Positions 5,850-30,398 of a stretch of 30,696 bases of DNA are shown here, piece by piece (positions within the stretch are counted from its first letter, which is position 1; every line of letters begins with the position of its first letter). A program made the position numbers and the translations under genes. The DNA is from Saccoglossus kowalevskii. Its lineage: Eukaryota > Hemichordata > Enteropneusta > Harrimaniidae. The DNA is taken from NCBI RefSeq assembly GCF_000003605.2, contig NW_003133525.1, positions 1 to 30,696 of the forward strand. The letters run 5' to 3'. Under the pieces are notes generated by a model. It had not been told where the DNA came from and ran no database searches. It saw only the letters and a program-made list of their open reading frames with translations.

Positions 5850-6021
5850 AATCGCTTTGTAAGCTACGTATTCGTGTATTAATCATCCTCACAATCGCTT
5901 TGTAAGCTACGTATACGTGTATTAATCTTCTTCACAATCGCTTTTTAAGCTACGTATTCGTGCATTAATCTTCCCCACAATCGTTTTGTAAGCTACGTAT
6001 TCGTGTATTAATCTTCCTCAC
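5850..6021. repeat. Module A copy 4, short-linker haplotype
   Basis: CATCCTCAC at 5,884. The fourth monomer runs directly into the AAACGC B-type monomer at 6,022; most other A copies have two more monomers (GCATT and CGCATTG) here. The same two-monomer absence occurs after the A copies at 22,487 and 26,185, so the three share an ancestor. Confidence 0.86.
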
Positions 6022-6451
6022 AAACGCATTGTAAGCTACGTATTTGTGTAATAATCTTCTTCACAATCGCTTTGTAAGCTACGTATTCGTGTATTAATCT
6101 TTCTCACAAACGCATTGTAAGCTACGTATTTGTGTAATAATCTTCTTCACAATCGCTTTGTAAGCTACGTATTCGTGTATTAATCTACTTCACAATCCCT
6201 TTGTAAACTACGTATTCGTGCATTAATCTTCCTCACAATCGCTTTGTAAACTACGTATTCGTGTATTAATCTTCTTCACAATCGCTTTGTAAGCTACGTA
6301 TTCGTGTATTAATCTTCTTCACAATCGCATTGTAAGCTACGTATTCGTGTATTAATCTTCTTCACAAACTCATTGTAAGCTACGTATTCGTGCATTAGTC
6401 TTCTTCACAATCGCTTTGTAAGCTACGTATTCGTGTATTAATCTTCTTCAC

Positions 6452-7569
6452 AATCGCTTTGTAAGCTCCGTATTCGTTTATTAATCTTCTTCACAATCGC
6501 TTTGTAAGCTACGTATTCGTGCATTAAACTTCTTCACAATCGCTTTGTAAGCTACGTATTCGTGTATTAATCTACTTCACAATCGCTTTGTAAGCTACGT
6601 GTTCGTGTATTAATCTTCTTCACAATCGCTTTGTAAGCTACGTATTCGTGCATTAATCTTCCTCACAATCGCTTTGTAAGCTACGTATTCGTGTATTAAT
6701 CTTCTTCACAATCGCTTTGTCAGCTACGTATTCGTGTATTAATCTTCTTCACAATCGCTTTGTAAGCTACGTATTCGTGTATTAATCTTCTTCACAATCG
6801 CTTTGTAAGCTACGTATTCGTGTATTAATCTGCTTCACAATCGCTTTGTAAGCTACGTATTCGTGTATTAATCTTCTTCACAATCGCTTTGTAAGCTACG
6901 TATTCGTGCATTAATCTTCTTCACAATCGCTTTGTAAGCTACGTATTCGTGTATTAATCTTCTTCACAATCGCTTTGTAAGCTACGTATTTGTGTATTAA
7001 TCTTCCTCACAATCGCTTTGTAAGCTACGTATTCGTGCATTAATCTTCTTCACAATCGCTTTGTAAGCTACGTATTCGTGTATTAATCTTCTTCACAATC
7101 GCTTTGTAAGCTACGTGTTCGTGTATTAATCTTCTTCACAATCGCTTTGTAAGCTACGTATTCGTGCATTAATCTTCCTCACAATCGCTTTGTAAGCTAC
7201 GTATTCGTGTATTAATCTTCTTCACAATCGCTTTGTCAGCTACGTATTCGTGTATTAATCTTCTTCACAATCGCTTTGTAAGCTACGTATTCGTGTATTA
7301 ATCTTCTTCACAATCGCTTTGTAAGCTACGTATTCGTGTATTAATCTGCTTCACAATCGCTTTGTAAGCTACGTATTCGTGTACTAATCTTCTTCACAAT
7401 CGCTTTGTAAGCTACGTATTCGTGCATTAATCTTCTTCACAATCGCTTTGTAAGCTACGTATTCGTGTATTAATCTTCTTCACAATCGCTTTGTAAGCTA
7501 CGTATTTGTGTATTAATCTTCCTCACAATCGCTTTGTAAGCTTCGTATTCGTGTATTAATCTTCTTCAC
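6452..7569. repeat. Module M copy 3 with 12-monomer internal duplication
   Basis: GCTCCG (6,465) to GCTTCG (7,540) is 1,075 bp rather than 559, an excess of exactly 12 monomers. CGTGTTCGTG and GTCAGC each occur twice (GTCAGC 6,719 and near 7,235). The first half has GTATTAAT where other M copies have GTACTAAT, and lacks GCTTCG at the expected place (7,024). The copy at 20,639 shares both features. Confidence 0.84.
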
Positions 7570-7870
7570 AATCGCTTTGTAAGCTACGTATTCGTGTATT
7601 AAACTTCTTCACAATCGCTTTGTAAGCTACGTATTCGTGTATTAATCTTCTTCACAATCGCTTTGTAAGCTACGTACTCGTGTATTAATCTTCTTCACAA
7701 TCGCTTTGTAAGCTACGTATTCGTGTATTAAACTTCTTCACAATCGCTTTGTAAGCTACGTATTCGTGTATTAATCTTCTTCACAATCGCTTTGTAAGCT
7801 ACGTATTCGTGCATTAATCTTCCTCACAATCGCTTTGTAAACTACGTATTCGTGCATTAATCTTCTTCAC

Positions 7871-8085
7871 AATCGCTTTGTAAGCTACGTATTCGTGTAT
7901 TAAACTTCTTTACAATCGCTTTGTAAGCTACGTATTCGTGCATTAAACTTCTTCACAATCGCTTTGTAAGCTTCGTATTCGTGTATTAAACTTCTTTACA
8001 ATCGCTTTGTAAGCTACGTATTCGTGCATTAAACTTCTTCACAATCGCTTTGCAAGCTTCGTATTCGTGTATTAAACTTCTTTAC
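7871..8085. repeat. Module C copy 1
   Basis: Five monomers alternating TAAACTTCTTTAC and GCATTAAACTTCTTCAC, with GCTTCG in the third and GCAAGCTTCG (8,052) in the fifth. HindIII sites (AAGCTT) fall in monomers 3 and 5, 86 bp apart. It lies seven monomers after the end of M, the same distance as at 28,980. Confidence 0.86.
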
Positions 8086-8773
8086 AATCGCTTTGTAAGC
8101 TACGTATTCGTGTATTAATCTTCTTCACAATCGCTTTGTAAGCTTCGTATTCGTGTATTAATCTTCTTCACAATCGCTTTGTAAGCTACGTATTCGTGCA
8201 TTAATCTTCTTCACAATCGCTTTGTAAGCTACGTATTCGTGCATTAAACTTCTTCACAATCGCTTTGTAAGCTACGTATTCGTGTATTAATCTTCTTCAC
8301 AATCGCTTTGTAAGCTACGTATTCGTGTATTAAACTTCTTCACAATCGCTTTGTAAGCTACGTATTCGTGTATTAATCTTCTTCACAATCGTTTTGTAAG
8401 CTACGTATTCGTGCATTAATCTTCTTCACAATCGCTTTGTAAGCTACGTATTCGTGCATTAATCTTCTTCACAATCGCTTTGTAAGCTACGTATTCGTGT
8501 ATTAATCTTCTTCACAGTCGCTTTGTAAGCTACGTATTCGTGCATTAATCTTCTTCACAATCGCTTTGTAAGCTACGTATTCGTGTATTAATCTTCTTCA
8601 CAATCGCTTTGTAAGCTACGTATTCGTGTATTAAACTTCTTCACAATCGCTTTGTAAGCTACGTATTCGTGCATTAATCTTCTTCACAATCGCTTTGTAA
8701 GCTACGTATTCGTGTATTAATCTTCTTCACAGTCGCTTTGTAAGCTACGTATTCGTGCATTAATCTTCTTCAC
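8086..8773. repeat. C-to-T linker, 16 monomers
   Basis: Sixteen near-consensus monomers with an ordered mix of GCTTCG, GCATT, TAAAC and CACAGTCGC variants. The stretch 24,895-25,582 has the same length and nearly the same order. One private change is GTTTTG near 8,391. Nothing else is visible. Confidence 0.8.
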
Positions 8774-8988
8774 AGTCGCTTTGTAAGCTACGTATTCGTG
8801 TATTAATCTTCCTAACAATCGCTTTGTAAGCTACGTATTTGTGTATTACTCTTCTTCACAATCGCTTTGTAAGCTACGTATTCGTGTATTAATCTTCTTC
8901 ACAATCGCTTTGTAAGCTACGTATTCGTGTATTAATCTTCCTAACAATCGCTTTGTAAGCTACGTATTTGTGTATTACTCTTCTTCAC
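8774..8988. repeat. Module T copy 4
   Basis: TATTACTC at 8,844 and 8,973, 129 bp apart, each preceded by a CTTCCTAAC monomer. It ends four monomers (172 bp) before the next A, matching the copies at 13,632 and 25,583. Confidence 0.86.
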
Positions 8989-9160
8989 AATCGCTTTGTA
9001 AGCTACGTATTCGTGTATTAATCTTCTTCACAATCGCTTTGTAAGCTACGTATTCGTGCATTAATCTTCCCCACAATCGTTTTGTAAGCTACGTATTCGT
9101 GTATTAATCTTCTTCACAATCGCTTTGTAAGCTACGTATTCGTGTATTAATCTTCTTCAC

Positions 9161-9332
9161 AATCGCTTTGTAAGCTACGTATTCGTGTATTAATCATCCT
9201 CACAATCGCTTTGTAAGCTACGTATACGTGTATTAATCTTCTTCACAATCGCTTTTTAAGCTACGTATTCGTGCATTAATCTTCCCCACAATCGTTTTGT
9301 AAGCTACGTATTCGTGTATTAATCTTCTTCAC
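9161..9332. repeat. Module A copy 5
   Basis: CATCCTCAC at 9,195, 77 monomers after copy 4. The long linker is intact (CGCATTG, AAACGCATTG twice, CCCTTTGTAAAC at 9,594), but the order then jumps from CGCATTG to the end of M (TATTTG, GCTTCG), so most of M is missing from this cycle. Confidence 0.85.
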
Positions 9333-9455
9333 AATCGCTTTGTAAGCTACGTATTCGTGCATTAATCTTCTTCACAATCGCATTGTAAGCTACGTATTCG
9401 TGTATTAATCTTCCTCACAAACGCATTGTAAGCTACGTATTTGTGTAATAATCTT

Positions 9456-10250
9456 CTTCACAATCGCTTTGTAAGCTACGTATTCGTGTATTAATCTTTC
9501 TCACAAACGCATTGTAAGCTACGTATTTGTGTAATAATCTTCTTCACAATCGCTTTGTAAGCTACGTATTCGTGTATTAATCTACTTCACAATCCCTTTG
9601 TAAACTACGTATTCGTGCATTAATCTTCCTCACAATCGCTTTGTAAACTACGTATTCGTGTATTAATCTTCTTCACAATCGCTTTGTAAGCTACGTATTC
9701 GTGTATTAATCTTCTTCACAATCGCATTGTAAGCTACGTATTCGTGTATTAATCTTCTTCACAATCGCTTTGTAAGCTACATATTTGTGTATTAATCTTC
9801 CTCACAATCGCTTTGTAAGCTTCGTATTCGTGTATTAATCTTCTTCACAATCGCTTTGTAAGCTACGTATTCGTGTATTAAACTTCTTCACAATCGCTTT
9901 GTAAGCTACGTATTCGTGTATTAATCTTCTTCACAATCGCTTTGTAAGCAACGTATTCGTGTATTAATCTTCTTCACAATCGCTTTGTAAGCTACGTATT
10001 CGTGTATTAAACTTCTTCACAATCGCTTTGTAAGCTACGTATTCGTGTATTAATCTTCTTCACAATCGCTTTGTAAGCTACGTATTCGTGCATTAATCTT
10101 CCTCACAATCGCTTTGTAAACTACGTATTCGTGCATTAATCTTCTTCACAATCGCTTTGTAAGCTACGTATTCGTGTATTAAACTTCTTTACAATCGCTT
10201 TGTAAGCTACGTATTCGTGCATTAAACTTCTTCACAATCGCTTTGTAAGC
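9456..10250. repeat. Left copy of an ~0.8-kb duplication (offset 1,032 bp)
   Basis: Collinear with 10,488-11,282 at an offset of exactly 24 monomers: AAACGC 9,505/10,537, CCCTTT 9,594/10,626, rare GCAACG 9,948/10,980. The left copy has ACATATTTG near 9,780 where the right has ACGTATTTG. A third GCAACG at 10,292 is 344 bp (8 monomers) after the first, from a smaller nested duplication. Confidence 0.83.
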
Positions 10251-10487
10251 TACGTATTCGTGTATTAATCTTCTTCACAATCGCTTTGTAAGCAACGTAT
10301 TCGTGTATTAATCTTCTTCACAATCGCTTTGTAAGCTACGTATTCGTGTATTAAACTTCTTCACAATCGCTTTGTAAGCTACGTATTCGTGTATTAATCT
10401 TCTTCACAATCGCTTTGTAAGCTACGTATTCGTGCATTAATCTTCCTCACAATCGCTTTGTAAACTACGTATTCGTGCATTAATCTT

Positions 10488-11282
10488 CTTCACAATCGCT
10501 TTGTAAGCTACGTATTCGTGTATTAATCTTTCTCACAAACGCATTGTAAGCTACGTATTTGTGTAATAATCTTCTTCACAATCGCTTTGTAAGCTACGTA
10601 TTCGTGTATTAATCTACTTCACAATCCCTTTGTAAACTACGTATTCGTGCATTAATCTTCCTCACAATCGCTTTGTAAACTACGTATTCGTGTATTAATC
10701 TTCTTCACAATCGCTTTGTAAGCTACGTATTCGTGTATTAATCTTCTTCACAATCGCATTGTAAGCTACGTATTCGTGTATTAATCTTCTTCACAATCGC
10801 TTTGTAAGCTACGTATTTGTGTATTAATCTTCCTCACAATCGCTTTGTAAGCTTCGTATTCGTGTATTAATCTTCTTCACAATCGCTTTGTAAGCTACGT
10901 ATTCGTGTATTAAACTTCTTCACAATCGCTTTGTAAGCTACGTATTCGTGTATTAATCTTCTTCACAATCGCTTTGTAAGCAACGTATTCGTGTATTAAT
11001 CTTCTTCACAATCGCTTTGTAAGCTACGTATTCGTGTATTAAACTTCTTCACAATCGCTTTGTAAGCTACGTATTCGTGTATTAATCTTCTTCACAATCG
11101 CTTTGTAAGCTACGTATTCGTGCATTAATCTTCCTCACAATCGCTTTGTAAACTACGTATTCGTGCATTAATCTTCTTCACAATCGCTTTGTAAGCTACG
11201 TATTCGTGTATTAAACTTCTTTACAATCGCTTTGTAAGCTACGTATTCGTGCATTAAACTTCTTCACAATCGCTTTGTAAGC
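10488..11282. repeat. Right copy of the ~0.8-kb duplication
   Basis: Partner of 9,456-10,250. The two diverge near 11,282, where this copy shows GCTTCG and enters module C while the left copy has GCTACG. The left boundary is where GTAATAAT (left) and GCATTAAT (right) differ. Confidence 0.83.
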
Positions 11283-11396
11283 TTCGTATTCGTGTATTAA
11301 ACTTCTTTACAATCGCTTTGTAAGCTACGTATTCGTGCATTAAACTTCTTCACAATCGCTTTGCAAGCTTCGTATTCGTGTATTAAACTTCTTTAC
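11182..11396. repeat. Module C copy 2
   Basis: All five monomers are present, with GCAAGCTTCG at 11,363. The usual 16-monomer linker and T do not follow; the array jumps back to CGCATTG and the TATTTG/GCTTCG end of M, then to A at 11,612. Confidence 0.85.
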
Positions 11397-11611
11397 AATC
11401 GCTTTGTAAGCTACGTATTCGTGTATTAATCTTCTTCACAATCGCTTTGTAAGCTACGTATTCGTGTATTAATCTTCTTCACAATCGCATTGTAAGCTAC
11501 GTATTCGTGTATTAATCTTCTTCACAATCGCTTTGTAAGCTACGTATTTGTGTATTAATCTTCCTCACAATCGCTTTGTAAGCTTCGTATTCGTGTATTA
11601 ATCTTCTTCAC

Positions 11612-11783
11612 AATCGCTTTGTAAGCTACGTATTCGTGTATTAATCATCCTCACAATCGCTTTGTAAGCTACGTATACGTGTATTAATCTTCTTCACAAT
11701 CGCTTTTTAAGCTACGTATTCGTGCATTAATCTTCTCCACAATCGTTTTGTAAGCTACGTATTCGTGTATTAATCTTCTTCAC
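11612..11783. repeat. Module A copy 6
   Basis: CATCCTCAC at 11,646. The third monomer ends CTCCAC instead of CCCCAC. B-type monomers follow to about 12,000, then AACTCATTG and one GCTCCG monomer (12,098), after which the order leaves M immediately. Confidence 0.84.
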
Positions 11784-12439
11784 AATCGCTTTGTAAGCTA
11801 CGTATTCGTGCATTAATCTTCTTCACAATCGCATTGTAAGCTACGTATTCGTGTATTAATCTTCCTCACAAACGCATTGTAAGCTACGTATTTGTGTAAT
11901 AATCTTCTTCACAATCGCTTTGTAAGCTACGTATTCGTGTATTAATCTTTCTCACAAACGCATTGTAAGCTACGTATTTGTGTAATAATCTTCTTCACAA
12001 ACTCATTGTAAGCTACGTATTCGTGCATTAATCTTCTTCACAATCGCTTTGTAAGCTACGTATTCGTGTATTAATCTTCTTCACAATCGCTTTGTAAGCT
12101 CCGTATTCGTTTATTAATCTTCTTCACAATCGCTTTGTAAGCTACGTATTCGTGTATTAATCTTCTTCACAATCGCATTGTAAGCTACGTATTCGTGTAT
12201 TAATCTTCTTCACAAACTCATTGTAAGCTACGTATTCGTGCATTAACCTTCTTCACAATCGCTTTGTAAGCTACGTATTCGTGTATTAATCTTCTTCACA
12301 ATCGCTTTGTAAGCTTCGTATTCGTGTATTAATCTTCTTCACAATCGCTTTGTAAGCTACGTATTCGTGTATTAATCTTCTTCACAATCGCTTTGTAAGC
12401 TACGTATTCGTGTATTAAACTTCTTCACAATCGCTTTGT

Positions 12440-13010
12440 AAGCTACGTATTCGGTATTAATCTTCTTCACAATCGCTTTGTAAGCTACGTATTCGTGCAT
12501 TAATCTTCTTCACAATCGCTTTGTAAGCTACGTATTCGTGCATTAATCTTCTTCACAATCGCTTTGTAAGCTACGTATTCGTGTATTAATCTTCTTCGCA
12601 GTCGCTTTGTAAGCTACGTATTCGTGCATTAATCTTCTTCACAATCGCTTTGTAAGCTACGTATTCGTGTATTAATCTTCTTCACAATCGCTTTGTAAGC
12701 TACGTATTCGTGTATTAAATTTCTTCACAATCGCTTTGTAAGCTACGTATTCGTGCATTAATCTTCTTCACAATCACTTTGTAAGCTACGTATTCGTGCA
12801 TTAATCTTCTTCACAGTCGCTTTGTAAGCTACGTATTCGTGTATTAATCTTCTTCACAGTCGCTTTGTAAGCTACGTATTCGTGCATTAATCTTCTTCAC
12901 AGTCGCTTTGTAAGCTACGTATTCGTGTATTAATCTTCCTAACAATCGCTTTGTAAGCTACGTATTCGTGTATTAAACTTCTTTACAATCGCCTTGTAAG
13001 CTACGTATTC
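12440..13010. repeat. Block with private variants (source or copy)
   Basis: Carries four rare marks: TTCGGTATT (1-bp deletion, 12,451), TAAATTTCTTC (12,716), CAATCACTTTG (12,771) and GCCTTGTAAG (12,991). Its left part recurs at 19,620-20,080 and its right part at 18,960-19,360, at offsets of 7,180 and 6,364 bp. Both offsets equal whole numbers of monomers (167 and 148) once the deletion is counted. Confidence 0.85.
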
Positions 13011-13631
13011 GTGTATTAAACTTCTTCACAATCGCTTTGTAAGCTACGTATTCGTGCATTAATCTTCTTCACAATCGCTTTGTAAGCTACGTATTCGTGC
13101 ATTAAACTTCTTCACAATCGCTTTGTAAGCTACGTATTCGTGTATTAATCTTCTTCACAATCGCTTTGTAAGCTACGTATTCGTGTATTAAACTTCTTCA
13201 CAATCGCTTTGTAAGCTACGTATTCGTGTATTAATCTTCTTCACAATCGCTTTGTAGGCTACGTATTCGTGCATTAATCTTCTTCACAATCGCTTTGTAA
13301 GCTACGTATTCGTGCATTAATCTTCTTCACAATCGCTTTGTAAGCTACGTATTCGTGTATTAATCTTCTTCACAGTCGCTTTGTAAGCTACGTATTCGTG
13401 CATTAATCTTCTTCACAATCGCTTTGTAAGCTACGTATTCGTGTATTAATCTTCTTCACAATCGCTTTGTAAGCTACGTATTCGTGTATTAAACTTCTTC
13501 ACAATCGCTTTGTAAGCTACGTATTCGTGCATTAATCTTCTTCACAATCGCTTTGTAAGCTACGTATTCGTGTATTAATCTTCTTCACAGTCGCTTTGTA
13601 AGCTACGTATTCGTGCATTAATCTTCTTCAC

Positions 13632-13846
13632 AGTCGCTTTGTAAGCTACGTATTCGTGTATTAATCTTCCTATCAATCGCTTTGTAAGCTACGTATTTGT
13701 GTATTACTCTTCTTCACAATCGCTTTGTAAGCTACGTATTCGTGTATTAATCTTCTTCACAATCGCTTTGTAAGCTACGTATTCGTGTATTAATCTTCCT
13801 AACAATCGCTTTGTAAGCTACGTATTTGTGTATTACTCTTCTTCAC
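13632..13846. repeat. Module T copy 5
   Basis: TATTACTC at 13,702 and 13,831, 129 bp apart. The first dimer has CTTCCTATC instead of CTTCCTAAC, a private change. It is followed four monomers later by A at 14,019. Confidence 0.85.
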
Positions 13847-14018
13847 AATCGCTTTGTAAGCTACGTATTCGTGTATTAATCTTCTTCACAATCGCTTTGT
13901 AAGCTACGTATTCGTGCATTAATCTTCCCCACAATCGTTTTGTAAGCTACGTATTCGTGTATTAATCTTCTTCACAATCGCTTTGTAAGCTACGTATTCG
14001 TGTATTAATCTTCTTCAC

Positions 14019-14190
14019 AATCGCTTTGTAAGCTACGTATTCGTGTATTAATCATCCTCACAATCGCTTTGTAAGCTACGTATACGTGTATTAATCTTCT
14101 TCACAATCGCTTTTTAAGCTACGTATTCGTGCATTAATCTTCCCCACAATCGTTTTGTAAGCTACGTATTCGTGTATTAATCTTCTTCAC
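14019..14190. repeat. Module A copy 7
   Basis: CATCCTCAC at 14,053. Only one B-type AAACGCATTG monomer follows (near 14,277) instead of two, so the A-to-M distance is 14 monomers. This deletion is different from the one in the short haplotype at 5,850. Confidence 0.84.
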
Positions 14191-14620
14191 AATCGCTTTG
14201 TAAGCTACGTATTCGTGCATTAATCTTCTTCACAATCGCATTGTAAGCTACGTATTCGTGTATTAATCTTCCTCACAAACGCATTGTAAGCTACGTATTT
14301 GTGTAATAATCTTCTTCACAATCGCTTTGTAAGCTACGTATTCGTGTATTAATCTACTTCACAATCCCTTTGTAAACTACGTATTCGTGCATTAATCTTC
14401 CTCACAATCGCTTTGTAAACTACGTATTCGTGTATTAATCTTCTTCACAATCGCTTTGTAAGCTACGTATTCGTGTATTAATCTTCTTCGCAATCGTATT
14501 GTAAGCTACGTATTCGTGTATTAATCTTCTTCACAAACTCATTGTAAGCTACGTATTCGTGCATTAATCTTCTTCACAATCGCTTTGTAAGCTACGTATG
14601 CGTGTATTAATCTTCTTCAC

Positions 14621-15222
14621 AATCGCTTTGTAAGCTCCGTATTCGTTTATTAATCTTCTTCACAATCGCTTTGTAAGCTACGTATTCGTGCATTAAACTT
14701 CTTCACAATCGCTTTGTAAGCTACGTATTCGTGTATTAATCTACTTCACAATCGCTTTGTAAGCTACGTGTTCGTGTATTAATCTTCTTCACAATCGCTT
14801 TGTAAGCTACGTATTCGTGCATTAATCTTCCTCACAATCGCTTTGTAAGCTACGTATTCGTGTATTAATCTTCTTCACAATCGCTTTGTCAGCTACGTAT
14901 TCGTGTATTAATCTTCTTCACAATCGCTTTGTAAGCTACGTATTCGTGTATTAATCTTCTTCACAATCGCTTTGTAAGCTACGTATTCGTGTATTAATCT
15001 GCTTCACAATCGCTTTGTAAGCTACGTATTCGTGTACTAATCTTCTTCACAATCGCTTTGTAAGCTACGTATTCGTGCATTAATCTTCTTCACAATCGCT
15101 TTGTAAGCTACGTATTCGTGTATTAATCTTCTTCACAATCGCTTTGTAAGCTACGTATTTGTGTATTAATCTTCCTCACAATCGCTTTGTAAGCTTCGTA
15201 TTCGTGTATTAATCTTCTTCAC
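14621..15222. repeat. Module M copy 4
   Basis: Complete: GCTCCG 14,634, GTCAGC 14,888, GCTTCG 15,193. The preceding monomer has TATGCGTG near 14,599, a private variant, and GTAAGTTACG and GCTGCG follow shortly after its end. No C or T follows before the next A. Confidence 0.87.
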
Positions 15223-15996
15223 AATCGCTTTGTAAGTTACGTATTCGTGTATTAAACTTCTTCACAATCGCTTTGTAAGCTGCGTATTCGTGTATTAATC
15301 TTCTTCACAATCGCTTTGTAAGCTACGTATTCGTGTATTAAACTTCTTCACAATCGCTTTGTAAGCTACGTATTCGTGTATTAATCTTCTTCACAATCGC
15401 TTTGTAAGCTACGTATTCGTGCATTAATCTTCTTCACAATCGCTTTGTAAGCTACGTATTCGTGTATTAATCTTCTTCACAATCGCTTTGTAAGCTACGT
15501 ATTCGTGTATTAAACTTCTTCACAATCGCTTTGTAAGCTACGTATTCGTGTATTAATCTTCTTCACAATCGCTTTGTAAGCTACGTATTCGTGCATTAAT
15601 CTTCCTCACAATCGCTTTGTAAGCTACGTATTCGTGTATTAAACTTCTTCACAATCGCTTTGTAAGCTACGTATTCGTGCATTAATCTTCTTCACAATCG
15701 CTTTGTAAGCTACGTATTCGTGCATTAATCTTCCCCACAATCGTTTTGTAAGCTACGTATTCGTGCATTAATCTTCCCCACAATCGTTTTGTAAGCTACG
15801 TATTCGTGTATTAATCTTCTTCACAATCGCTTTGTAAGCTACGTATACGTGTATTAATCTTCTTCACAATCGCTTTTTAAGCTACGTATTCGTGCATTAA
15901 TCTTCCCCACAATCGTTTTGTAAGCTACGTATTCGTGTATTAATCTTCTTCACAATCGCTTTGTAAGCTACGTATTCGTGCATTAATCTTCTTCAC
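15223..15996. repeat. Linker array between M and A
   Basis: Eighteen monomers, mostly consensus, GCATT or TAAAC variants, then two successive CCCCAC/GTTTTG monomers and a TATACGTG monomer (15,844) without CATCCTCAC. The last part, from about 15,696, repeats 2,281-2,581 closely. C and T are absent. Confidence 0.8.
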
Positions 15997-16168
15997 AATC
16001 GCTTTGTAAGCTACGTATTCGTGTATTAATCATCCTCACAATCGCTTTGTAAGCTACGTATACGTGTATTAATCTTCTTCACAATCGCTTTTTAAGCTAC
16101 GTATTCGTGCATTAATCTTCCCCACAATCGTTTTGTAAGCTACGTATTCGTGTATTAATCTTCTTCAC
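15997..16168. repeat. Module A copy 8
   Basis: CATCCTCAC at 16,031, exactly 13,415 bp after the one at 2,616. The full long linker follows (A to M 16 monomers), with CCCTTTGTAAAC at 16,430 and AACTCATTG near 16,603. Confidence 0.86.
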
Positions 16169-16684
16169 AATCGCTTTGTAAGCTACGTATTCGTGCATTA
16201 ATCTTCTTCACAATCGCATTGTAAGCTACGTATTCGTGTATTAATCTTCCTCACAAACGCATTGTAAGCTACGTATTTGTGTAATAATCTTCTTCACAAT
16301 CGCTTTGTAAGCTACGTATTCGTGTATTAATCTTTCTCACAAACGCATTGTAAGCTACGTATTTGTGTAATAATCTTCTTCACAATCGCTTTGTAAGCTA
16401 CGTATTCGTGTATTAATCTACTTCACAATCCCTTTGTAAACTACGTATTCGTGCATTAATCTTCCTCACAATCGCTTTGTAAACTACGTATTCGTGTATT
16501 AATCTTCTTCACAATCGCTTTGTAAGCTACGTATTCGTGTATTAATCTTCTTCACAATCGCATTGTAAGCTACGTATTCGTGTATTAATCTTCTTCACAA
16601 ACTCATTGTAAGCTACGTATTCGTGCATTAATCTTCTTCACAATCGCTTTGTAAGCTACGTATTCGTGTATTAATCTTCTTCAC

Positions 16685-20080: not shown

Positions 20081-20381
20081 AGTCGCTTTGTAAGCTACGT
20101 ATTCGTGTATTAATCTTCCTAACAATCGCTTTGTAAGCTACGTATTTGTGTATTACTCTTCTTCACAATCGCTTTGTAAGCTACGTATTCGTGTATTAAT
20201 CTTCTTCACAATCGCTTTGTAAGCTACGTATTCGTGCATTAATCTTCCTCACAATCGCTTTTTAAACTACGTATTCGTGTATTAATCTTCTTCACAATCG
20301 CTTTGTAAGCTACGTATTCGTGTATTAATCTTCCTAACAATCGCTTTGTAAGCTACGTATTTGTGTATTACTCTTCTTCAC
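20081..20381. repeat. Module T copy 6, 215-bp spaced form
   Basis: TATTACTC at 20,151 and 20,366, 215 bp (five monomers) apart, with a CTTTTTAAAC monomer between them. It matches 5,334-5,634 at an offset of 14,747 bp. Confidence 0.85.
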
Positions 20382-20638
20382 AATCGCTTTGTAAGCTACG
20401 TATTCGTGTATTAATCTTCTTCACAATCGCTTTGTAAGCTACGTATTCGTGTATTAATCTTCCTAACAATCGCTTTGTAAGCTACGTATTCGTGTATTAA
20501 TCTTCTTCACAATCGCTTTGTAAGCTACGTATTCGTGCATTAATCTTCCTCACAATCGTTTTGTAAGCTACGTATTCGTGTATTAATCTTCTTCACAATC
20601 GCTTTGTAAGCTACGTATTCGTGTATAATCTTCTTCAC

Positions 20639-21239
20639 AATCGCTTTGTAAGCTACGTATTCGTTTATTAATCTTCTCACAATCGCTTTGTAAGCTACGT
20701 ATTCGTGCATTAAACTTCTTCACAATCGCTTTGTAAGCTACGTATTCGTGTATTAATCTACTTCACAATCGCTTTGTAAGCTACGTGTTCGTGTATTAAT
20801 CTTCTTCACAATCGCTTTGTAAGCTACGTATTCGTGCATTAATCTTCCTCACAATCGCTTTGTAAGCTACGTATTCGTGTATTAATCTTCTTCACAATCG
20901 CTTTGTCAGCTACGTATTCGTGTATTAATCTTCTTCACAATCGCTTTGTAAGCTACGTATTCGTGTATTAATCTTCTTCACAATCGCTTTGTAAGCTACG
21001 TATTCGTGTATTAATCTGCTTCACAATCGCTTTGTAAGCTACGTATTCGTGTATTAATCTTCTTCACAATCGCTTTGTAAGCTACGTATTCGTGCATTAA
21101 TCTTCTTCACAATCGCTTTGTAAGCTACGTATTCGTGTATTAATCTTCTTCACAATCGCTTTGTAAGCTACGTATTTGTGTATTAATCTTCCTCACAATC
21201 GCTTTGTAAGCTACGTATTCGTGCATTAATCTTCTTCAC
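20639..21239. repeat. Module M copy 7, variant
   Basis: TCGTTTATT, CTACTTCAC, CGTGTTCGTG, GTCAGC (20,905), CTGCTTCAC and TATTTGTG occur in order, but the first monomer has GCTACG rather than GCTCCG, and GTACTAAT and GCTTCG are replaced by GTATTAAT and GCTACG. The latter two features match the first half of the copy at 6,452. One base is deleted near 20,677, and another near 20,625 just upstream. Confidence 0.8.
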
Positions 21240-21540
21240 AATCGCTTTGTAAGCTACGTATTCGTGTATTAATCTTCTTCACAATCGCTTTGTAAGCAAC
21301 GTATTCGTGTATTAATCGGCTTCACAATCGCTTTGTAAGCTACGTATTCGTGTACTAATCTTCTTCAAAATCGCTTTGTAAGCTACGTATTCGTGCATTA
21401 ATCTTCTTCACAATCGCTTTGTAAGCTACGTATTCGTGTATTAATCTTCTTCACAATCGCTTTGTAAGCTACGTATTCGTGCATTAATCTTCCTCACAAT
21501 CGCTTTGTAAACTACGTATTCGTGCATTAATCTTCTTCAC

Positions 21541-21755
21541 AATCGCTTTGTAAGCTACGTATTCGTGTATTAAACTTCTTTACAATCGCTTTGTAAGCTA
21601 CGTATTCGTGCATTAAACTTCTTCACAATCGCTTTGTAAGCTTCGTATTCGTGTATTAAACTTCTTTACAATCGCTTTGTAAGCTACGTATTCGTGCATT
21701 AAACTTCTTCACAATCGCTTTGCAAGCTTCGTATTCGTGTATTAAACTTCTTTAC
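21541..21755. repeat. Module C copy 3
   Basis: Five monomers with GCAAGCTTCG at 21,722. T follows after only nine linker monomers (22,143) instead of 16. Upstream lie GCAACG (near 21,297), CGGCTTCAC and TTCAAAATCG private variants around 21,297-21,370. Confidence 0.85.
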
Positions 21756-22142
21756 AATCGCTTTGTAAGCTACGTATTCGTGTATTAATCTTCTTCACAA
21801 TCGCTTTGTAAGCTTCGTATTCGTGTATTAATCTTCTTCACAATCGCTTTGTAAGCTACGTATTCGTGCATTAATCTTCTTCACAATCGCTTTGTAAGCT
21901 ACGTATTCGTGCATTAAACTTCTTCACAATCGCTTTGTAAGCTACGTATTCGTGTATTAATCTTCTTCACAATCGCTTTGTAAGCTACGTATTCGTGTAT
22001 TAAACTTCTTCACAATCGCTTTGTAAGCTACGTATTCGTGCATTAATCTTCTTCACAATCGCTTTGTAAGCTACGTATTCGTGTATTAATCTTCTTCACA
22101 GTCGCTTTGTAAGCTACGTATTCGTGCATTAATCTTCTTCAC

Positions 22143-22357
22143 AGTCGCTTTGTAAGCTACGTATTCGTGTATTAATCTTCCTAACAATCGCTTTGTAAGC
22201 TACGTATTTGTGTATTACTCCTCTTCACAATGGCTTTGTAAGCTACGTATTCGTGTATTAATCTTCTTCACAATCGCTTTGTAAGCTACGTATTCTTGTA
22301 TTAATCTTCCTAACAATCGCTTTGTAAGCTACGTATTTGTGTATTACTCTTCTTCAC
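22143..22357. repeat. Module T copy 7
   Basis: TATTACTC at 22,213 and 22,342 (129 bp apart). Private changes are ATTACTCCTC, CAATGGC and TATTCTTG between 22,217 and 22,297. A follows three monomers later at 22,487. Confidence 0.84.
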
Positions 22358-22486
22358 AATCGCTTTGTAAGCTACGTATTCGTGTATTAATCTTCTTCAC
22401 AATCGCTTTGTAAGCTACGTATTCGTGCATTAATCTTCCCCACAATCGTTTTGTAAGCTACGTATTCGTGTATTAATCTTCTTCAC

Positions 22487-22658
22487 AATCGCTTTGTAAG
22501 CTACGTATTCGTGTATTAATCATCCTCACAATCGCTTTGTAAGCTACGTATACGTGTATTAATCTTCTTCACAATCGCTTTTTAAGCTACGTATTCGTGC
22601 ATTAATCTTCCCCACAATCGTTTTGTAAGCTACGTATTCGTGTATTAATCTTCCTCAC
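22487..22658. repeat. Module A copy 10, short-linker haplotype
   Basis: CATCCTCAC at 22,521, 106 monomers after copy 9, the largest gap between A modules. It runs directly into the AAACGC monomer, as at 5,850 and 26,185. Confidence 0.86.
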
Positions 22659-23088
22659 AAACGCATTGTAAGCTACGTATTTGTGTAATAATCTTCTTCA
22701 CAATCGCTTTGTAAGCTACGTATTCGTGTATTAATCTTTCTCACAAACGCATTGTAAGCTACGTATTTGTGTAATAATCTTCTTCACAATCGCTTTGTAA
22801 GCTACGTATTCGTGTATTAATCTACTTCACAATCCCTTTGTAAACTACGTATTCGTGCATTAATCTTCCTCACAATCGCTTTGTAAACTACGTATTCGTG
22901 TATTAATCTTCTTCACAATCGCTTTGTAAGCTACGTATTCGTGTATTAATCTTCTTCACAATCGCATTGTAAGCTACGTATTCGTGTATTAATCTTCTTC
23001 ACAAACTCATTGTAAGCTACGTATTCGTGCATTAATCTTCTTCACAATCGCTTTGTAAGCTACGTATTCGTGTATTAATCTTCTTCAC

Positions 23089-23690
23089 AATCGCTTTGTA
23101 AGCTCCGTATTCGTTTATTAATCTTCTTCACAATCGCTTTGTAAGCTACGTATTCGTGCATTAAACTTCTTCACAATCGCTTTGTAAGCTACGTATTCGT
23201 GTATTAATCTACTTCACAATCGCTTTGTAAGCTACGTGTTCGTGTATTAATCTTCTTCACAATCGCTTTGTAAGCTACGTATTCGTGCATTAATCTTCCT
23301 CACAATCGCTTTGTAAGCTACGTATTCGTGTATTAATCTTCTTCACAATCGCTTTGTCAGCTACGTATTCGTGTATTAATCTTCTTCACAATCGCTTTGT
23401 AAGCTACGTATTCGTGTATTAATCTTCTTCACAATCGCTTTGTAAGCTACGTATTCGTGTATTAATCTGCTTCACAATCGCTTTGTAAGCTACGTATTCG
23501 TGTACTAATCTTCTTCACAATCGCTTTGTAAGCTACGTATTCGTGCATTAATCTTCTTCACAATCGCTTTGTAAGCTACGTATTCGTGTATTAATCTTCT
23601 TCACAATCGCTTTGTAAGCTACGTATTTGTGTATTAATCTTCCTCACAATCGCTTTGTAAGCTTCGTATTCGTGTATTAATCTTCTTCAC
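23089..23690. repeat. Module M copy 8
   Basis: Complete copy: GCTCCG 23,102, GTCAGC 23,356, GCTTCG 23,661, with GTACTAAT present. A C-type block starts one monomer after its end. Confidence 0.87.
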
Positions 23691-23733
23691 AATCGCTTTG
23701 TAAGCTACGTATTCGTGTATTAAACTTCTTCAC

Positions 23734-23948
23734 AATCGCTTTGTAAGCTACGTATTCGTGTATTAAACTTCTTTACAATCGCTTTGTAAGCTACGTATTC
23801 GTGTATTAAACTTCTTCACAATCGCTTTGTAAGCTTCGTATTCGTGTATTAAACTTCTTTACAATCGCTTTGTAAGCTACGTATTCGTGCATTAAACTTC
23901 TTCACAATCGCTTTGCAAGCTTCGTATTCGTGTATTAAACTTCTTTAC
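23734..23948. repeat. Module C copy 4, between two M copies
   Basis: GCAAGCTTCG at 23,915, 946 bp (22 monomers) before the one in the next C. The second monomer has GTATT instead of GCATT. It lies between M copies at 23,089 and 24,078, so it was carried in by the duplication that made the second M. Confidence 0.83.
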
Positions 23949-24077
23949 AATCGCTTTGTAAGCTACGTATTCGTGTATTAATCTTCTTCACAATCGCATT
24001 GTAAGCTACGTATTCGTGTATTAATCTTCTTCACAAACTCATTGTAAGCTACGTATTCGTGTATTAATCTTCTTCAC

Positions 24078-24636
24078 AATCGCTTTGTAAGCTCCGTATT
24101 CGTTTATTAATCTTCTTCACAATCGCTTTGTAAGCTACGTATTCGTGTATTAATCTACTTCACAATCGCTTTGTAAGCTACGTGTTCGTGTATTAATCTT
24201 CTTCACAATCGCTTTGTAAGCTACGTATTCGTGCATTAATCTTCCTCACAATCGCTTTGTAAGCTACGTATTCGTGTATTAATCTTCTTCACAATCGCTT
24301 TGTCAGCTACGTATTCGTGTATTAATCTTCTTCACAATCGCTTTGTAAGCTACGTATTCGTGTATTAATCTTCTTCACAATCGCTTTGTAAGCTACGTAT
24401 TCGTGTATTAATCTGCTTCACAATCGCTTTGTAAGCTACGTATTCGTGTACTAATCTTCTTCACAATCGCTTTGTAAGCTACGTATTCGTGCATTAATCT
24501 TCTTCACAATCGCTTTGTAAGCTACGTATTCGTGTATTAATCTTCTTCACAATCGCTTTGTAAGCTACGTATTTGTGTATTAATCTTCCTCACAATCGCT
24601 TTGTAAGCTTCGTATTCGTGTATTAATCTTCTTCAC
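24078..24636. repeat. Module M copy 9, one monomer shorter
   Basis: GCTCCG at 24,091 is 989 bp (23 monomers) after copy 8. GCTCCG to GTCAGC is 211 bp rather than 254, so one monomer (the GCATTAAAC one) is missing; GCTTCG is at 24,607. Confidence 0.86.
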
Positions 24637-24679
24637 AATCGCTTTGTAAGCTACGTATTCGTGTATTAAACTTCTTCAC

Positions 24680-24894
24680 AATCGCTTTGTAAGCTACGTA
24701 TTCGTGTATTAAACTTCTTTACAATCGCTTTGTAAGCTACGTATTCGTGCATTAAACTTCTTCACAATCGCTTTGTAAGCTTCGTATTCGTGTATTAAAC
24801 TTCTTTACAATCGCTTTGTAAGCTACGTATTCGTGCATTAAACTTCTTCACAATCGCTTTGCAAGCTTCGTATTCGTGTATTAAACTTCTTTAC
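24680..24894. repeat. Module C copy 5
   Basis: Five monomers with GCAAGCTTCG at 24,861. With the following 16-monomer linker and T it forms a 1,118-bp block collinear with 7,871-8,988, offset 16,809 bp (391 monomers less four known 1-bp deletions). Confidence 0.86.
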
Positions 24895-25582
24895 AATCGC
24901 TTTGTAAGCTACGTATTCGTGTATTAATCTTCTTCACAATCGCTTTGTAAGCTTCGTATTCGTGTATTAATCTTCTTCACAATCGCTTTGTAAGCTACGT
25001 ATTCGTGCATTAATCTTCTTCACAATCGCTTTGTAAGCTACGTATTCGTGCATTAAACTTCTTCACAATCGCTTTGTAAGCTACGTATTCGTGTATTAAT
25101 CTTCTTCACAATCGCTTTGTAAGCTACGTATTCGTGTATTAAACTTCTTCACAATCGCTTTGTAAGCTACGTATTCGTGTATTAATCTTCTTCACAATCG
25201 CTTTGTAAGCTACATATTCGTGCATTAATCTTCTTCACAATCGCTTTGTAAGCTACGTATTCGTGCATTAATCTTCTTCACAATCGCTTTGTAAGCTACG
25301 TATTCGTGTATTAATCTTCTTCACAGTCGCTTTGTAAGCTACGTATTCGTGCATTAATCTTCTTCACAATCGCTTTGTAAGCTACGTATTCGTGTATTAA
25401 TCTTCTTCACAATCGCTTTGTAAGCTACGTATTCGTGTATTAAACTTCTTCACAATCGCTTTGTAAGCTACGTATTCGTGCATTAATCTTCTTCACAATC
25501 GCTTTGTAAGCTACGTATTCGTGTATTAATCTTCTTCACAGTCGCTTTGTAAGCTACGTATTCGTGCATTAATCTTCTTCAC
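24895..25582. repeat. C-to-T linker, 16 monomers
   Basis: The variant order matches 8,086-8,773. A private ACATATTCG change near 25,213 destroys one of the otherwise near-invariant TACGTA cores. CACAGTCGC monomers precede T. Confidence 0.8.
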
Positions 25583-25797
25583 AGTCGCTTTGTAAGCTAC
25601 GTATTCGTGTATTAATCTTCCTAACAATCGCTTTGTAAGCTACGTATTTGTGTATTACTCTTCTTCACAATCGCTTTGTAAGCTACGTATTCGTGTATTA
25701 ATCTTCTTCACAATCGCTTTGTAAGCTACGTATTCGTGTATTAATCTTCCTAACAATCGCTTTGTAAGCTACGTATTTGTGTATTACTCTTCTTCAC
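25583..25797. repeat. Module T copy 8
   Basis: TATTACTC at 25,653 and 25,782, 129 bp apart, with CTTCCTAAC partners. It ends four monomers before A at 25,970. Confidence 0.86.
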
Positions 25798-25969
25798 AAT
25801 CGCTTTGTAAGCTACGTATTCGTGTATTAATCTTCTTCACAATCGCTTTGTAAGCTACGTATTCGTGCATTAATCTTCCCCACAATCGTTTTGTAAGCTA
25901 CGTATTCGTGTATTAATCTTCTTCACAATCGCTTTGTAAGCTACGTATTCGTGTATTAATCTTCTTCAC

Positions 25970-26141
25970 AATCGCTTTGTAAGCTACGTATTCGTGTATT
26001 AATCATCCTCACAATCGCTTTGTAAGCTACGTATACGTGTATTAATCTTCTTCACAATCGCTTTTTAAGCTACGTATTCGTGCATTAATCTTCCCCACAA
26101 TCGTTTTGTAAGCTACGTATTCGTGTATTAATCTTCTTCAC
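25970..26141. repeat. Module A copy 11, left of a tandem pair
   Basis: CATCCTCAC at 26,004, only 215 bp (five monomers) before the next one, so A itself has been tandemly duplicated with one linker monomer. This is the closest A pair in the window. Confidence 0.87.
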
Positions 26142-26184
26142 AATCGCTTTGTAAGCTACGTATTCGTGTATTAATCTTCTTCAC

Positions 26185-26356
26185 AATCGCTTTGTAAGCT
26201 ACGTATTCGTGTATTAATCATCCTCACAATCGCTTTGTAAGCTACGTATACGTGTATTAATCTTCTTCACAATCGCTTTTTAAGCTACGTATTCGTGCAT
26301 TAATCTTCCCCACAATCGTTTTGTAAGCTACGTATTCGTGTATTAATCTTCCTCAC
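26185..26356. repeat. Module A copy 12, right of the pair, short haplotype
   Basis: CATCCTCAC at 26,219. It runs straight into AAACGC (short haplotype) and two B-type monomers, then jumps to TAAAC and C at 26,787. M and CCCTTT are absent from this 28-monomer cycle. Confidence 0.86.
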
Positions 26357-26786
26357 AAACGCATTGTAAGCTACGTATTTGTGTAATAATCTTCTTCACA
26401 ATCGCTTTGTAAGCTACGTATTCGTGTATTAATCTTTCTCACAAACGCATTGTAAGCTACGTATTTGTGTAATAATCTTCTTCACAATCGCTTTGTAAGC
26501 TACGTATTCGTGTATTAAACTTCTTCACAATCGCTTTGTAAACTACGTATTCGTGCATTAATCTTCTTCACAATCGCTTTGTAAGCTACGTATTCGTGTA
26601 TTAATCTTCTTCACAATCGCTTTGTAAGCTACGTATTCGTGTATTAATCTTCTTCACAATCGCTTTGTAAGCTACGTATTCGTGTATTAATCTTCTTCAC
26701 AATCGCTTTGTAAGCTACGTATTCGTGCATTAATCTTCCTCACAATCGCTTTGTAAACTACGTATTCGTGCATTAATCTTCTTCAC

Positions 26787-27001
26787 AATCGCTTTGTAAG
26801 CTACGTATTCGTGTATTAAACTTCTTTACAATCGCTTTGTAAGCTACGTATTCGTGCATTAAACTTCTTCACAATCGCTTTGTAAGCTTCGTATTCGTGT
26901 ATTAAACTTCTTTACAATCGCTTTGTAAGCTACGTATTCGTGCATTAAACTTCTTCACAATCGCTTTGCAAGCTTCGTATTCGTGTATTAAACTTCTTTA
27001 C
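26787..27001. repeat. Module C copy 6
   Basis: Five monomers, GCAAGCTTCG at 26,968. It is followed within five monomers by single-dimer T at 27,217 rather than after the normal 16. Confidence 0.85.
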
Positions 27002-27216
27002 AATCGCTTTGTAAGCTACGTATTCGTGTATTAATCTTCTTCACAATCGCTTTGTAAGCTTCGTATTCGTGTATTAAACTTCTTCACAATCGCTTTGTAA
27101 GCTACGTATTCGTGTATTAATCTTCTTCACAATCGCTTTGTAAGCTTCGTATTCGTGTATTAATCTTCTTCACAGTCGCTTTGTAAGCTACGTATTCGTG
27201 CATTAATCTTCTTCAC

Positions 27217-27302
27217 AATCGCTTTGTAAGCTACGTATTCGTGTATTAATCTTCCTAACAATCGCTTTGTAAGCTACGTATTTGTGTATTACTCTTCTTC
27301 AC
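27217..27302. repeat. Module T, single dimer
   Basis: One CTTCCTAAC/TATTACTC dimer only (TATTACTC 27,287). This is one of the few places where the pair has been reduced to one. A follows at 27,389. Confidence 0.83.
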
Positions 27303-27388
27303 AATCGCTTTGTAAGCTACGTATTCGTGTATTAATCTTCTTCACAATCGCTTTGTAAGCTACGTATTCGTGTATTAATCTTCTTCAC

Positions 27389-27560
27389 AATCGCTTTGTA
27401 AGCTACGTATTCGTGTATTAATCATCCTCACAATCGCTTTGTAAGCTACGTATACGTGTATTAATCTTCTTCACAATCGCTTTTTAAGCTACGTATTCGT
27501 GCATTAATCTTCCCCACAATCGTTTTGTAAGCTACGTATTCGTGTATTAATCTTCTTCAC
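27389..27560. repeat. Module A copy 13
   Basis: CATCCTCAC at 27,423. The long linker is complete: CGCATTG, two AAACGCATTG monomers, CCCTTTGTAAAC at 27,822 and AACTCATTG near 27,990. Confidence 0.87.
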
Positions 27561-28076
27561 AATCGCTTTGTAAGCTACGTATTCGTGCATTAATCTTCTT
27601 CACAATCGCATTGTAAGCTACGTATTCGTGTATTAATCTTCCTCACAAACGCATTGTAAGCTACGTATTTGTGTAATAATCTTCTTCACAATCGCTTTGT
27701 AAGCTACGTATTCGTGTATTAATCTTTCTCACAAACGCATTGTAAGCTACGTATTTGTGTAATAATCTTCTTCACAATCGCTTTGTAAGCTACGTATTCG
27801 TGTATTAATCTACTTCACAATCCCTTTGTAAACTACGTATTCGTGCATTAATCTTCCTCACAATCGCTTTGTAAACTACGTATTCGTGTATTAATCTTCT
27901 TCACAATCGCTTTGTAAGCTACGTATTCGTGTATTAATCTTCTTCACAATCGCATTGTAAGCTACGTATTCGTGTATTAATCTTCTTCACAAACTCATTG
28001 TAAGCTACGTATTCGTGCATTAATCTTCTTCACAATCGCTTTGTAAGCTACGTATTCGTGTATTAATCTTCTTCAC

Positions 28077-28678
28077 AATCGCTTTGTAAGCTCCGTATTC
28101 GTTTATTAATCTTCTTCACAATCGCTTTGTAAGCTACGTATTCGTGCATTAAACTTCTTCACAATCGCTTTGTAAGCTACGTATTCGTGTATTAATCTAC
28201 TTCACAATCGCTTTGTAAGCTACGTGTTCGTGTATTAATCTTCTTCACAATCGCTTTGTAAGCTACGTATTCGTGCATTAATCTTCCTCACAATCGCTTT
28301 GTAAGCTACGTATTCGTGTATTAATCTTCTTCACAATCGCTTTGTCAGCTACGTATTCGTGTATTAATCTTCTTCACAATCGCTTTGTAAGCTACGTATT
28401 CGTGTATTAATCTTCTTCACAATCGCTTTGTAAGCTACGTATTCGTGTATTAATCTGCTTCACAATCGCTTTGTAAGCTACGTATTCGTGTACTAATCTT
28501 CTTCACAATCGCTTTGTAAGCTACGTATTCGTGCATTAATCTTCTTCACAATCGCTTTGTAAGCTACGTATTCGTGTATTAATCTTCTTCACAATCGCTT
28601 TGTAAGCTACGTATTTGTGTATTAATCTTCCTCACAATCGCTTTGTAAGCTTCGTATTCGTGTATTAATCTTCTTCAC
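28077..28678. repeat. Module M copy 10
   Basis: Complete: GCTCCG 28,090, GTCAGC 28,344, GTACTAAT present, GCTTCG 28,649. It stands 16 monomers after A and 7 before C, the spacing taken as canonical. Confidence 0.88.
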
Positions 28679-28979
28679 AATCGCTTTGTAAGCTACGTAT
28701 TCGTGTATTAAACTTCTTCACAATCGCTTTGTAAGCTACGTATTCGTGTATTAATCTTCTTCACAATCGCTTTGTAAGCTACGTATTCGTGTATTAATCT
28801 TCTTCACAATCGCTTTGTAAGCTACGTATTCGTGTATTAAACTTCTTCACAATCGCTTTGTAAGCTACGTATTCGTGTATTAATCTTCTTCACAATCGCT
28901 TTGTAAGCTACGTATTCGTGCATTAATCTTCCTCACAATCGCTTTGTAAACTACGTATTCGTGCGTTAATCTTCTTCAC

Positions 28980-29194
28980 AATCGCTTTGTAAGCTACGTA
29001 TTCGTGTATTAAACTTCTTTACAATCGCTTTGTAAGCTACGTATTCGTGCATTAAACTTCTTCACAATCGCTTTGTAAGCTTCGTATTCGTGTATTAAAC
29101 TTCTTTACAATCGCTTTGTAAGCTACGTATTCGTGCATTAAACTTCTTCACAATCGCTTTGCAAGCTTCGTATTCGTGTATTAAACTTCTTTAC
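28980..29194. repeat. Module C copy 7
   Basis: Five monomers, GCAAGCTTCG at 29,161. A single extra GCAAGCTTCG monomer recurs at 29,410-29,452, six monomers on, showing a local repeat of the C end. Confidence 0.85.
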
Positions 29195-30398
29195 AATCGC
29201 TTTGTAAGCTACGTATTCGTGTATTAATCTTCTTCACAATCGCTTTGTAAGCTTCGTATTCGTGTATTAATCTTCTTCACAATCGCTTTGTAAGCTACGT
29301 ATTCGTGCATTAATCTTCTTCACAATCGCTTTGTAAGCTACGTATTCGTGCATTAAACTTCTTCACAATCGCTTTGTAAGCTACGTATTCGTGTATTAAT
29401 CTTCTTCACAATCGCTTTGCAAGCTTCGTATTCGTGTATTAAACTTCTTTACAATCGCTTTGTAAGCTACGTATTCGTGTATTAATCTTCTTCACAATCG
29501 CTTTGTAAGCTTCGTATTCGTGTATTAATCTTCTTCACAATCGCTTTGTAAGCTACGTATTCGTGCATTAATCTTCTTCACAATCGCTTTGTAAGCTACG
29601 TATTCGTGCATTAAACTTCTTCACAATCGCTTTGTAAGCTACGTATTCGTGTATTAATCTTCTTCACAATCGCTTTGTAAGCTACGTATTCGTGTATTAA
29701 ACTTCTTCACAATCGCTTTGTAAGCTACGTATTCGTGCATTAATCTTCTTCACAATCGCTTTGTAAGCTACGTATTCGTGTATTAATCTTCTTCACAGTC
29801 GCTTTGTAAGCTACGTATTCGTGCATTAATCTTTTTCACAGTCGCTTTGTAAGCTACGTATTCGTGTATTAATCTTCCTAACAATCGCTTTGTAAGCTAC
29901 GTATTTGTGTATTAATCTTCTTCACAATCGCTTTGTAAGCTACGTATTCGTGTATTAATCTTCCTAACAATCGCTTTGTAAGCTACGTATTCGTGTATTA
30001 ATCTTCTTCACAATCGCTTTGTAAGCTACGTATCCGTGCATTAATCTTCCTAACAATCGCTTTGTAAGCTACGTATTCGTGTATTAATCTACCTAACAAT
30101 CGCTTTGTAAGCTACGTATTCGTGTATTAAACTTCTTCACAATCGCTTTGTAAGCTACGTATTCGTGTATTAATCTTCTTCACAATCGCTTTGTAAGCTA
30201 CGTATTCGTGTATTAATCTTCTTCACAATCGCTTTGTAAGCTACGTATTCGTGTATTAAACTTCTTCACAATCGCTTTGTAAGCTACGTATTCGTGTATT
30301 AATCTTCTTCACAATCGCTTTGTAAGATACGTATTCGTGCATTAATCTTCCTCACAATCGCTTTGTAAACTACGTATTCGTGCATTAATCTTCTTCAC
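29195..30398. repeat. Rearranged linker after C, degenerate T
   Basis: Twenty-eight monomers. CTTCCTAAC occurs near 29,874, 29,957 and 30,046, and a CTACCTAAC variant near 30,090. The one TATTTG monomer ends TATTAATC, so T is present only in degenerate form. Private changes are CTTTTTCAC (29,831), TATCCGTG (30,031) and GTAAGATACG (30,326). No A module follows. No gene is visible. Confidence 0.75.

Follow-up and report, generated by a model that had tools for sequence, protein, structure and literature searches.

A 43-bp tandem array of Saccoglossus kowalevskii keeps a cyclic order of about 60-67 monomers without a regular higher-order period

Introduction

The 43-bp tandem array described here makes up a 30,696-bp contig of Saccoglossus kowalevskii (NW_003133525.1, our contig C2546), which was analyzed at full length and is referred to below as the window. 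Its closest described counterparts are human locus-specific variable number tandem repeats (VNTRs), of which those with units of 36, 38, 40 and 61 bp carry higher-order repeats (HORs) in the set covered by PMC2588610. The 61-bp VNTR at Xp22.33, which forms irregular HORs of 1.6 and 2.4-2.5 kb in the account given there, resembles the 43-bp array in having a short unit, a length of tens of kilobases, a single locus and irregular kilobase-scale higher-order structure (PMC2588610). The two differ in unit sequence and in species, and for the 43-bp array the monomer order has been worked out and its breaks counted.

Alpha satellite, for which canonical, variant and cascading HORs have been described (PMC11630843), offers a second comparison. 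As in the 43-bp array, monomers at corresponding positions of different alpha-satellite HOR copies resemble each other far more than they resemble the other monomers of their own copy (PMC6718397, PMC11630843), and the cascading HORs likewise repeat monomer kinds within the unit (PMC11630843). However, equidistant diagonals are the expected signature of HOR copies (PMC6718397), and alpha arrays, as portrayed in these sources, have both such diagonals and complete copies, whereas the 43-bp array has neither; alpha satellite is also linked to centromeres, and no such link is known for the 43-bp array. Variant telomeric repeats of Arabidopsis, explained by slippage and unequal crossing over, share with the 43-bp array variant maps, local homogenization and HORs, but have a 7-bp unit and lie at chromosome ends, as PMC11406999 presents them.

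A model-made note on the window, the original prediction, had proposed a HOR of 67 monomers (2,881 bp) with a fixed order of modules, long by comparison with human alpha satellite. Judging length by monomer number is misleading because alpha monomers are about 171 bp; in base pairs the proposed unit is shorter than the alpha-satellite 33-mer HOR of 5,639 bp (PMC6718397). Human arrays of the 5-bp GAATG repeat have HORs of 3,360, 3,600 and 5,630 bp, each comprising hundreds of monomers, among the examples in PMC2588610, and with published HORs of similar kilobase scale built from so many monomers, the number 67 is not exceptional.

A recurring order of monomers

The contig, one of 4,830 in an assembly of 572,110,611 bases, is tandem repeat throughout and carries no unique flanking DNA. 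Tandem Repeats Finder reports one period-43 array (1-30,695), and cutting by alignment to the consensus gives 714 monomers, 704 of which are exactly 43 bp. There are 89 distinct monomer sequences, with the consensus itself occurring 153 times.

We found that these monomers follow a well-supported cyclic order of about 60-67 positions. Greedy construction of the cycle from contexts of four to six monomers was diverted into a loop of 24 monomers by a tie that was resolved in favor of a rare junction, and the cycle was therefore assembled by eye from recurrent monomer strings and then tested by parsing the array against it with a jump cost. It has 67 slots filled by 33 distinct monomer kinds; no recurrent monomer kind is specific to slot 9, at which the three intact copies disagree, and F was placed there. 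The parse of all 714 monomers has 70 breaks and 127 mismatches at a cost of 534, and the number of breaks ranges from 56 to 78 across jump costs of 8 to 3. By comparison, none of 300 permuted slot orders gives fewer than 187 breaks or a cost below 1,808, parsing of 100 monomer shuffles gives at least 227 breaks, and the reversed array parsed against the cycle has 248. All slots are present in 6 to 16 copies, and each of the 67 adjacencies is seen at least five times. The cost rises by 14 to 58 wherever the cycle is opened, and we conclude that the cycle closes. The landmark spacings in the original prediction also sum to 67, equal to the cycle rebuilt here.

In a noncircular test, the stretch 7,011-9,762 alone served as reference, monomers 130-162 and 227-239 were left out, and each comparison used 100 permutations. 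The 130 monomers that precede index 130 parsed with 17 breaks, compared with a permuted minimum of 35; the corresponding figures were 52 and 120 for the 474 monomers starting at index 240, and 20 and 62 for the last 234 of those. Other 64-monomer stretches used as reference explained the remainder less well or similarly, with 75 to 131 breaks. The fixed order that had been proposed thus holds on held-out monomers as well as against permutation.

The array accordingly shows two properties of a HOR: variant monomers recur in a fixed order, and monomers of the same slot are more alike (0.65% divergence) than the 67 canonical monomers are among themselves (5.7%, compared with about 20-40% within units in the alpha-satellite literature cited above), although best-fit slot assignment favors this comparison.

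No regular 2,881-bp unit

Two further properties of a HOR, equidistant diagonals at the unit length and complete canonical copies in tandem, are absent. Exact runs of at least eight monomers place 11 of 1,025 monomers (1.1%) at lags 64-68 and none at lags 130-138, and such runs are distributed over 78 lags, with the highest values at 391, 265 and 116; in slot labels, the shares at the same two ranges are 0.7% and 0.4%. Monomer autocorrelation has no peak at 65-67. From one copy of a slot to the next, the median distance is 51 monomers, only 2 of 647 such distances (0.3%) fall within 65-69, and successive occurrences of an anchor monomer are 25, 22, 76, 77, 57, 56, 46, 45, 106, 81, 5 and 28 monomers apart. 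With one break per approximately 10 monomers on average, no unbroken turn through all 67 slots occurs among the 714 monomers; the longest run is 62 to 64 slots depending on jump cost, and 64 in the parse used. There is no dominant period, and a physical 2,881-bp unit tiling the array is not seen.

Several length forms coexist, so that 67 is not the only form of the cycle: FAb occurs eight times and a form shorter by two monomers three times, and a block of seven slots is skipped in three places as against five passages of that adjacency. The original prediction is therefore borne out for its recurring order but not for its regular unit, and the diagonals near 65-67 monomers that it offered as a check do not appear. 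Its anchors at 5,850, 22,487 and 27,389 are one and the same slot (27). The cycle beginning at 5,850 has the predicted 77 monomers and composition; that at 22,487 has the predicted 81, but not as 65 plus 16 duplicated (Table 1).

Table 1. Features of the 43-bp array, with positions in the window
Feature	Positions	Strand	Basis
Uninterrupted 43-bp tandem array, 714 monomers	1..30696	+	Tandem Repeats Finder, alignment to consensus
Longest stretch in unbroken cycle order: slots 44-66 followed by 0-40 (64 slots), crossing the cycle closure	7011..9762	+	parse
Next longest such stretch: slots 26-66 followed by 0-6 (48 slots)	27346..29409	+	parse
Longest exact repeat, 25 monomers (1,075 bp), again at 27,647	22659..23733	+
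First predicted cycle, 77 monomers = 67 - 2 (hybrid deletion) + 12 (duplication)	5850..9160	+	parse
Second predicted cycle, 81 monomers = 67 - 2 - 6 + 22	22487..25969	+	parse
Monomer "i", a hybrid that begins as F and ends as b; in-register 2-monomer deletion; also at 22,616 and 26,314	5979..6021	+
Cluster of 42/44-bp and private monomers near contig start	646..860	+	monomer lengths, singletons

Breaks keep the monomer register

The 70 breaks are of 52 kinds, and 67 of them join two exact 43-bp monomers; the remaining three, at monomer indices 17, 20 and 479, touch a monomer that is one base longer or shorter. More than half (38/70) fall between two canonical monomers, and 10, representing 6 kinds, contain a monomer whose sequence exactly matches the start of one parent joined to the end of the other. 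Apparent displacements, with sizes taken modulo 67, are eight monomers or fewer at 42 of the 70. Joining that was independent of sequence would be expected to keep register in only about 1 of 43 cases. With 67 of 70 breaks in register and 10 marked by hybrid monomers, the best fit is a HOR-like array whose order was disrupted by duplications and deletions in register. Some events can be ordered relative to each other. A deletion of six slots (58-63) has left the same junction of slot 57 to slot 64 at 23,734 and 24,680, in both copies of a 22-monomer duplication, and is therefore probably older than the duplication.

An apparently single-locus, minisatellite-type array

Within the readable assembly, close copies of the 43-bp monomer are confined to the window: an exact 21-bp core has 469 matches genome-wide, all of them the window's own 469, and the monomer with up to three mismatches has 633, again equal to the window's 633, with none on the reverse strand. 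These counts describe the readable assembly and copies at that similarity, with more diverged copies and masked or unassembled DNA lying outside them. The low abundance of the repeat in the assembly speaks against an abundant satellite, and because close copies occur on no other readable contig, we regard the array as minisatellite-like and apparently at a single locus. The unit is short (43 bp) and the array limited in length (at least 30.7 kb, both ends being contig ends), which fits this assignment. The array lies within the range that PMC2588610 gives for its VNTRs (units of at least 20 bp, arrays of up to about 50 kb) and slightly beyond the minisatellite figures stated in PMC8122249 (about 15 bp, 0.5-30 kb). 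Minisatellite-type arrays with scrambled higher-order order are a kind already known.

Nothing indicates a function beyond that of an exchange-prone tandem array. Coding and RNA functions were considered and rejected, since the window has no open reading frame of at least 100 amino acids and no Rfam match at gathering scores, and strong strand folding was not seen (z -1.6 and -1.8). The exact 21-bp core has no match in sets of viral contigs and genome contigs. With the low-complexity filter on, a near-relative search of 5,000-6,000 against phages and a distant-relative search of 7,011-9,762 against plasmids also gave no match. A 17-letter piece of the 21-bp core, the only piece of sequence sought in print, occurs in none of the papers searched.

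Three short stretches near the contig ends (646-860, 2065-2108 and 30657-30696) contain 6 of the 10 monomers of a length other than 43 bp, five of these at indices 15-48 and one the last monomer of the array, and are likely low-coverage consensus. Of the 45 private monomers, the first and the last 51 positions of the array account for 9 and 7, respectively, and the 612 monomers in the middle for the other 29, with 6 in one inner bin. The contig ends, including the cluster at 646-860, are probably less well polished.

Origin of the scrambled order

The reading that we favor, with a probability of about 0.78, is that of a young, single-locus minisatellite-type array in which a block of about 67 monomers was amplified and later scrambled by in-register exchange. 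A block of approximately 67 variant monomers would have been amplified head to tail, giving a HOR stage, and the amplified array would then have undergone tens of duplications and deletions, each presumably through homologous, in-register exchange, whether by unequal sister-chromatid exchange, single-strand annealing or slippage. Local order would thereby be kept, in runs of about 10 monomers, while the period was lost. The 0.65% divergence within slots, set against 5.7% between them and subject to the best-fit caution given above, suggests that the amplification is young compared with the divergence among monomers. In simulations starting from 11 regular 67-mer copies, with small events drawn either uniformly from 1 to 20 monomers or geometrically with a mean of 8 (15 runs each), about 80 such events, the best-fitting number, gave approximately 70 breaks of 57 or 58 kinds (52 observed). 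The simulated share at lags 64-68 was 0.016-0.018, compared with observed values of 0.011 for exact runs and 0.007 for slot labels.

Several observations weigh against this history. The scarcity of distances near 67 (0.3%) is reached in only 4 or 5 of 100 runs starting from an amplified HOR with small events, and in 15 to 17 of 100 with larger events, and the longest observed run of 64 slots exceeds the simulated means of 40 to 50. Of the 70 breaks, 22 involve a monomer that differs from its slot but is not an exact hybrid, and a bias toward longer homology at the breaks is not shown, identity tracts having a median of 43, against 42 at random in-register positions (p = 0.10). The weakest adjacency has two supports when at least three monomers on each side are required in one run, best-fit assignment lowers the divergence within slots, and the cycle was read from the same array to which it is applied, in a single fragmented assembly with masked stretches.

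We weighed three other explanations. A plausible one, though unlikely, is continuous unequal crossover of the type described by Smith, without a distinct amplification of a 67-mer, in which the cycle is a chain left by overlapping duplications. Such exchange makes periodicities by itself, as the part of PMC8122249 concerned with it sets out, and the array does contain many spacings. However, growth simulated from one or two copies with no amplified HOR (100 runs at each of 10 settings, some runs with large events being too short to score) kept on average only 21 to 45 of the 67 slots, and growth by small events produced 318 to 438 breaks rather than 70, in simulations that left out longer histories with mutation.

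Doubts about the assembly itself carry somewhat less weight, and we think there is little chance that the mosaic arose in part from the joining of different parts or haplotypes of a longer and more regular array. The contig is all repeat without flanks, both its ends are richer in private monomers, and 6 of the 10 odd-length monomers are among the first 49 or the last; but breaks are spread along the whole contig, at 7 to 13 per 102 monomers, other arrays of the genome likewise have no clean period, and the identity at breaks (median, 43 bp) would be too short for joins by long-read overlap, if such were used. That the array is mostly a regular 67-mer (2,881-bp) HOR, with the breaks as local exceptions, is very unlikely: there is strong support for the cyclic order and for its closure, but a break about every 10 monomers, the lack of any complete unit and the 1.1% of exact diagonal weight at lags 64-68 all argue against it.

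Amplification followed by in-register scrambling would mean that a long cyclic order of monomers can outlast the loss of the period itself. Because order persists where the period is lost, a period search alone misses such an array, and parsing based on order is needed. Hybrid monomers and nested junctions then form a readable history of in-register exchange. As a single 43-bp array, the locus is otherwise ordinary.

Other arrays of the same genome

To place the window among its neighbors in the assembly, the starts of 23 other contigs, sampled by contig number, were taken at 10 kb each; 6 read as N and 17 were readable. Seven of the 17 are at least 95% tandem array, on contigs of 10-47 kb, with units of 35, 40, 44, 48/97, 57, 216 and 262/489 bp. 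The 43-bp consensus has no 13-mer in common with any of the 17. Five short-unit arrays were tested for order (10 or 20 kb each) against 60 monomer shuffles, with many lags tested and z-scores uncorrected; the 216-bp array was only split into monomers, and the 262/489-bp array fell outside the order test. The 40-bp array of C2550 gave lags 59, 118 and 177 at z-scores of 12, 17 and 17; the 48/97-bp array of C4700 (1-10000) gave lag 75 at z 15, about 3.6 kb; and the 35-bp array of C1200 gave lags 71, 88, 163 and 51 at z 7-10. For C4400 the best lag was 197 monomers of 57 bp (11 kb; z 6.6), and for C2100 mainly lags 5 and 2 (z 5-6). The best lag of the window in the same test, up to 199, was 149 (z 7.3).

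These high z-scores at long lags indicate that long-range order is present in several arrays of the genome and not only in the window. The C2550 (40 bp), C4700 (48 bp) and C1200 (35 bp) arrays are like the 43-bp array in being tandem, in filling the stretches read and in their long-range order; unlike it, C2550 has kept its period. In C2550 (1-10000), the long higher-order unit is the more regular, at 59 monomers or about 2.36 kb.

Having several such arrays in one genome may offer a place to ask what sets the size of a higher-order unit. The sizes are 2.9 kb in the window (67 x 43), 2.4 kb in C2550 (59 x 40), 3.6 kb in C4700 (75 x 48) and 2.5 kb in C1200 (71 x 35). It is a long shot that unrelated short-unit arrays of this genome each develop units of about 2.4-3.6 kb whatever the length of the monomer; if they did, the step of exchange or amplification would measure DNA length (for example, circle size or resection tract) and not monomer number. 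Lags 51 and 88 in C1200 (1.8 and 3.1 kb), the 11 kb of C4400 and the lags of 5 and 2 in C2100 speak against a common length.

Two minor observations were made on other contigs. The G+C content of C600 and C3200 is 0.20 and 0.19, compared with 0.28-0.53 in the other 15 readable contigs, and these two possibly derive from another organism or an organelle. On the mitochondrial contig C4830 (17,037 bp; 12023-16363), COX1, which has in-frame TGA in keeping with an animal mitochondrial code, lies on the strand opposite to two other frames that we take to be ND1 and COX2, presumably an unusual arrangement.

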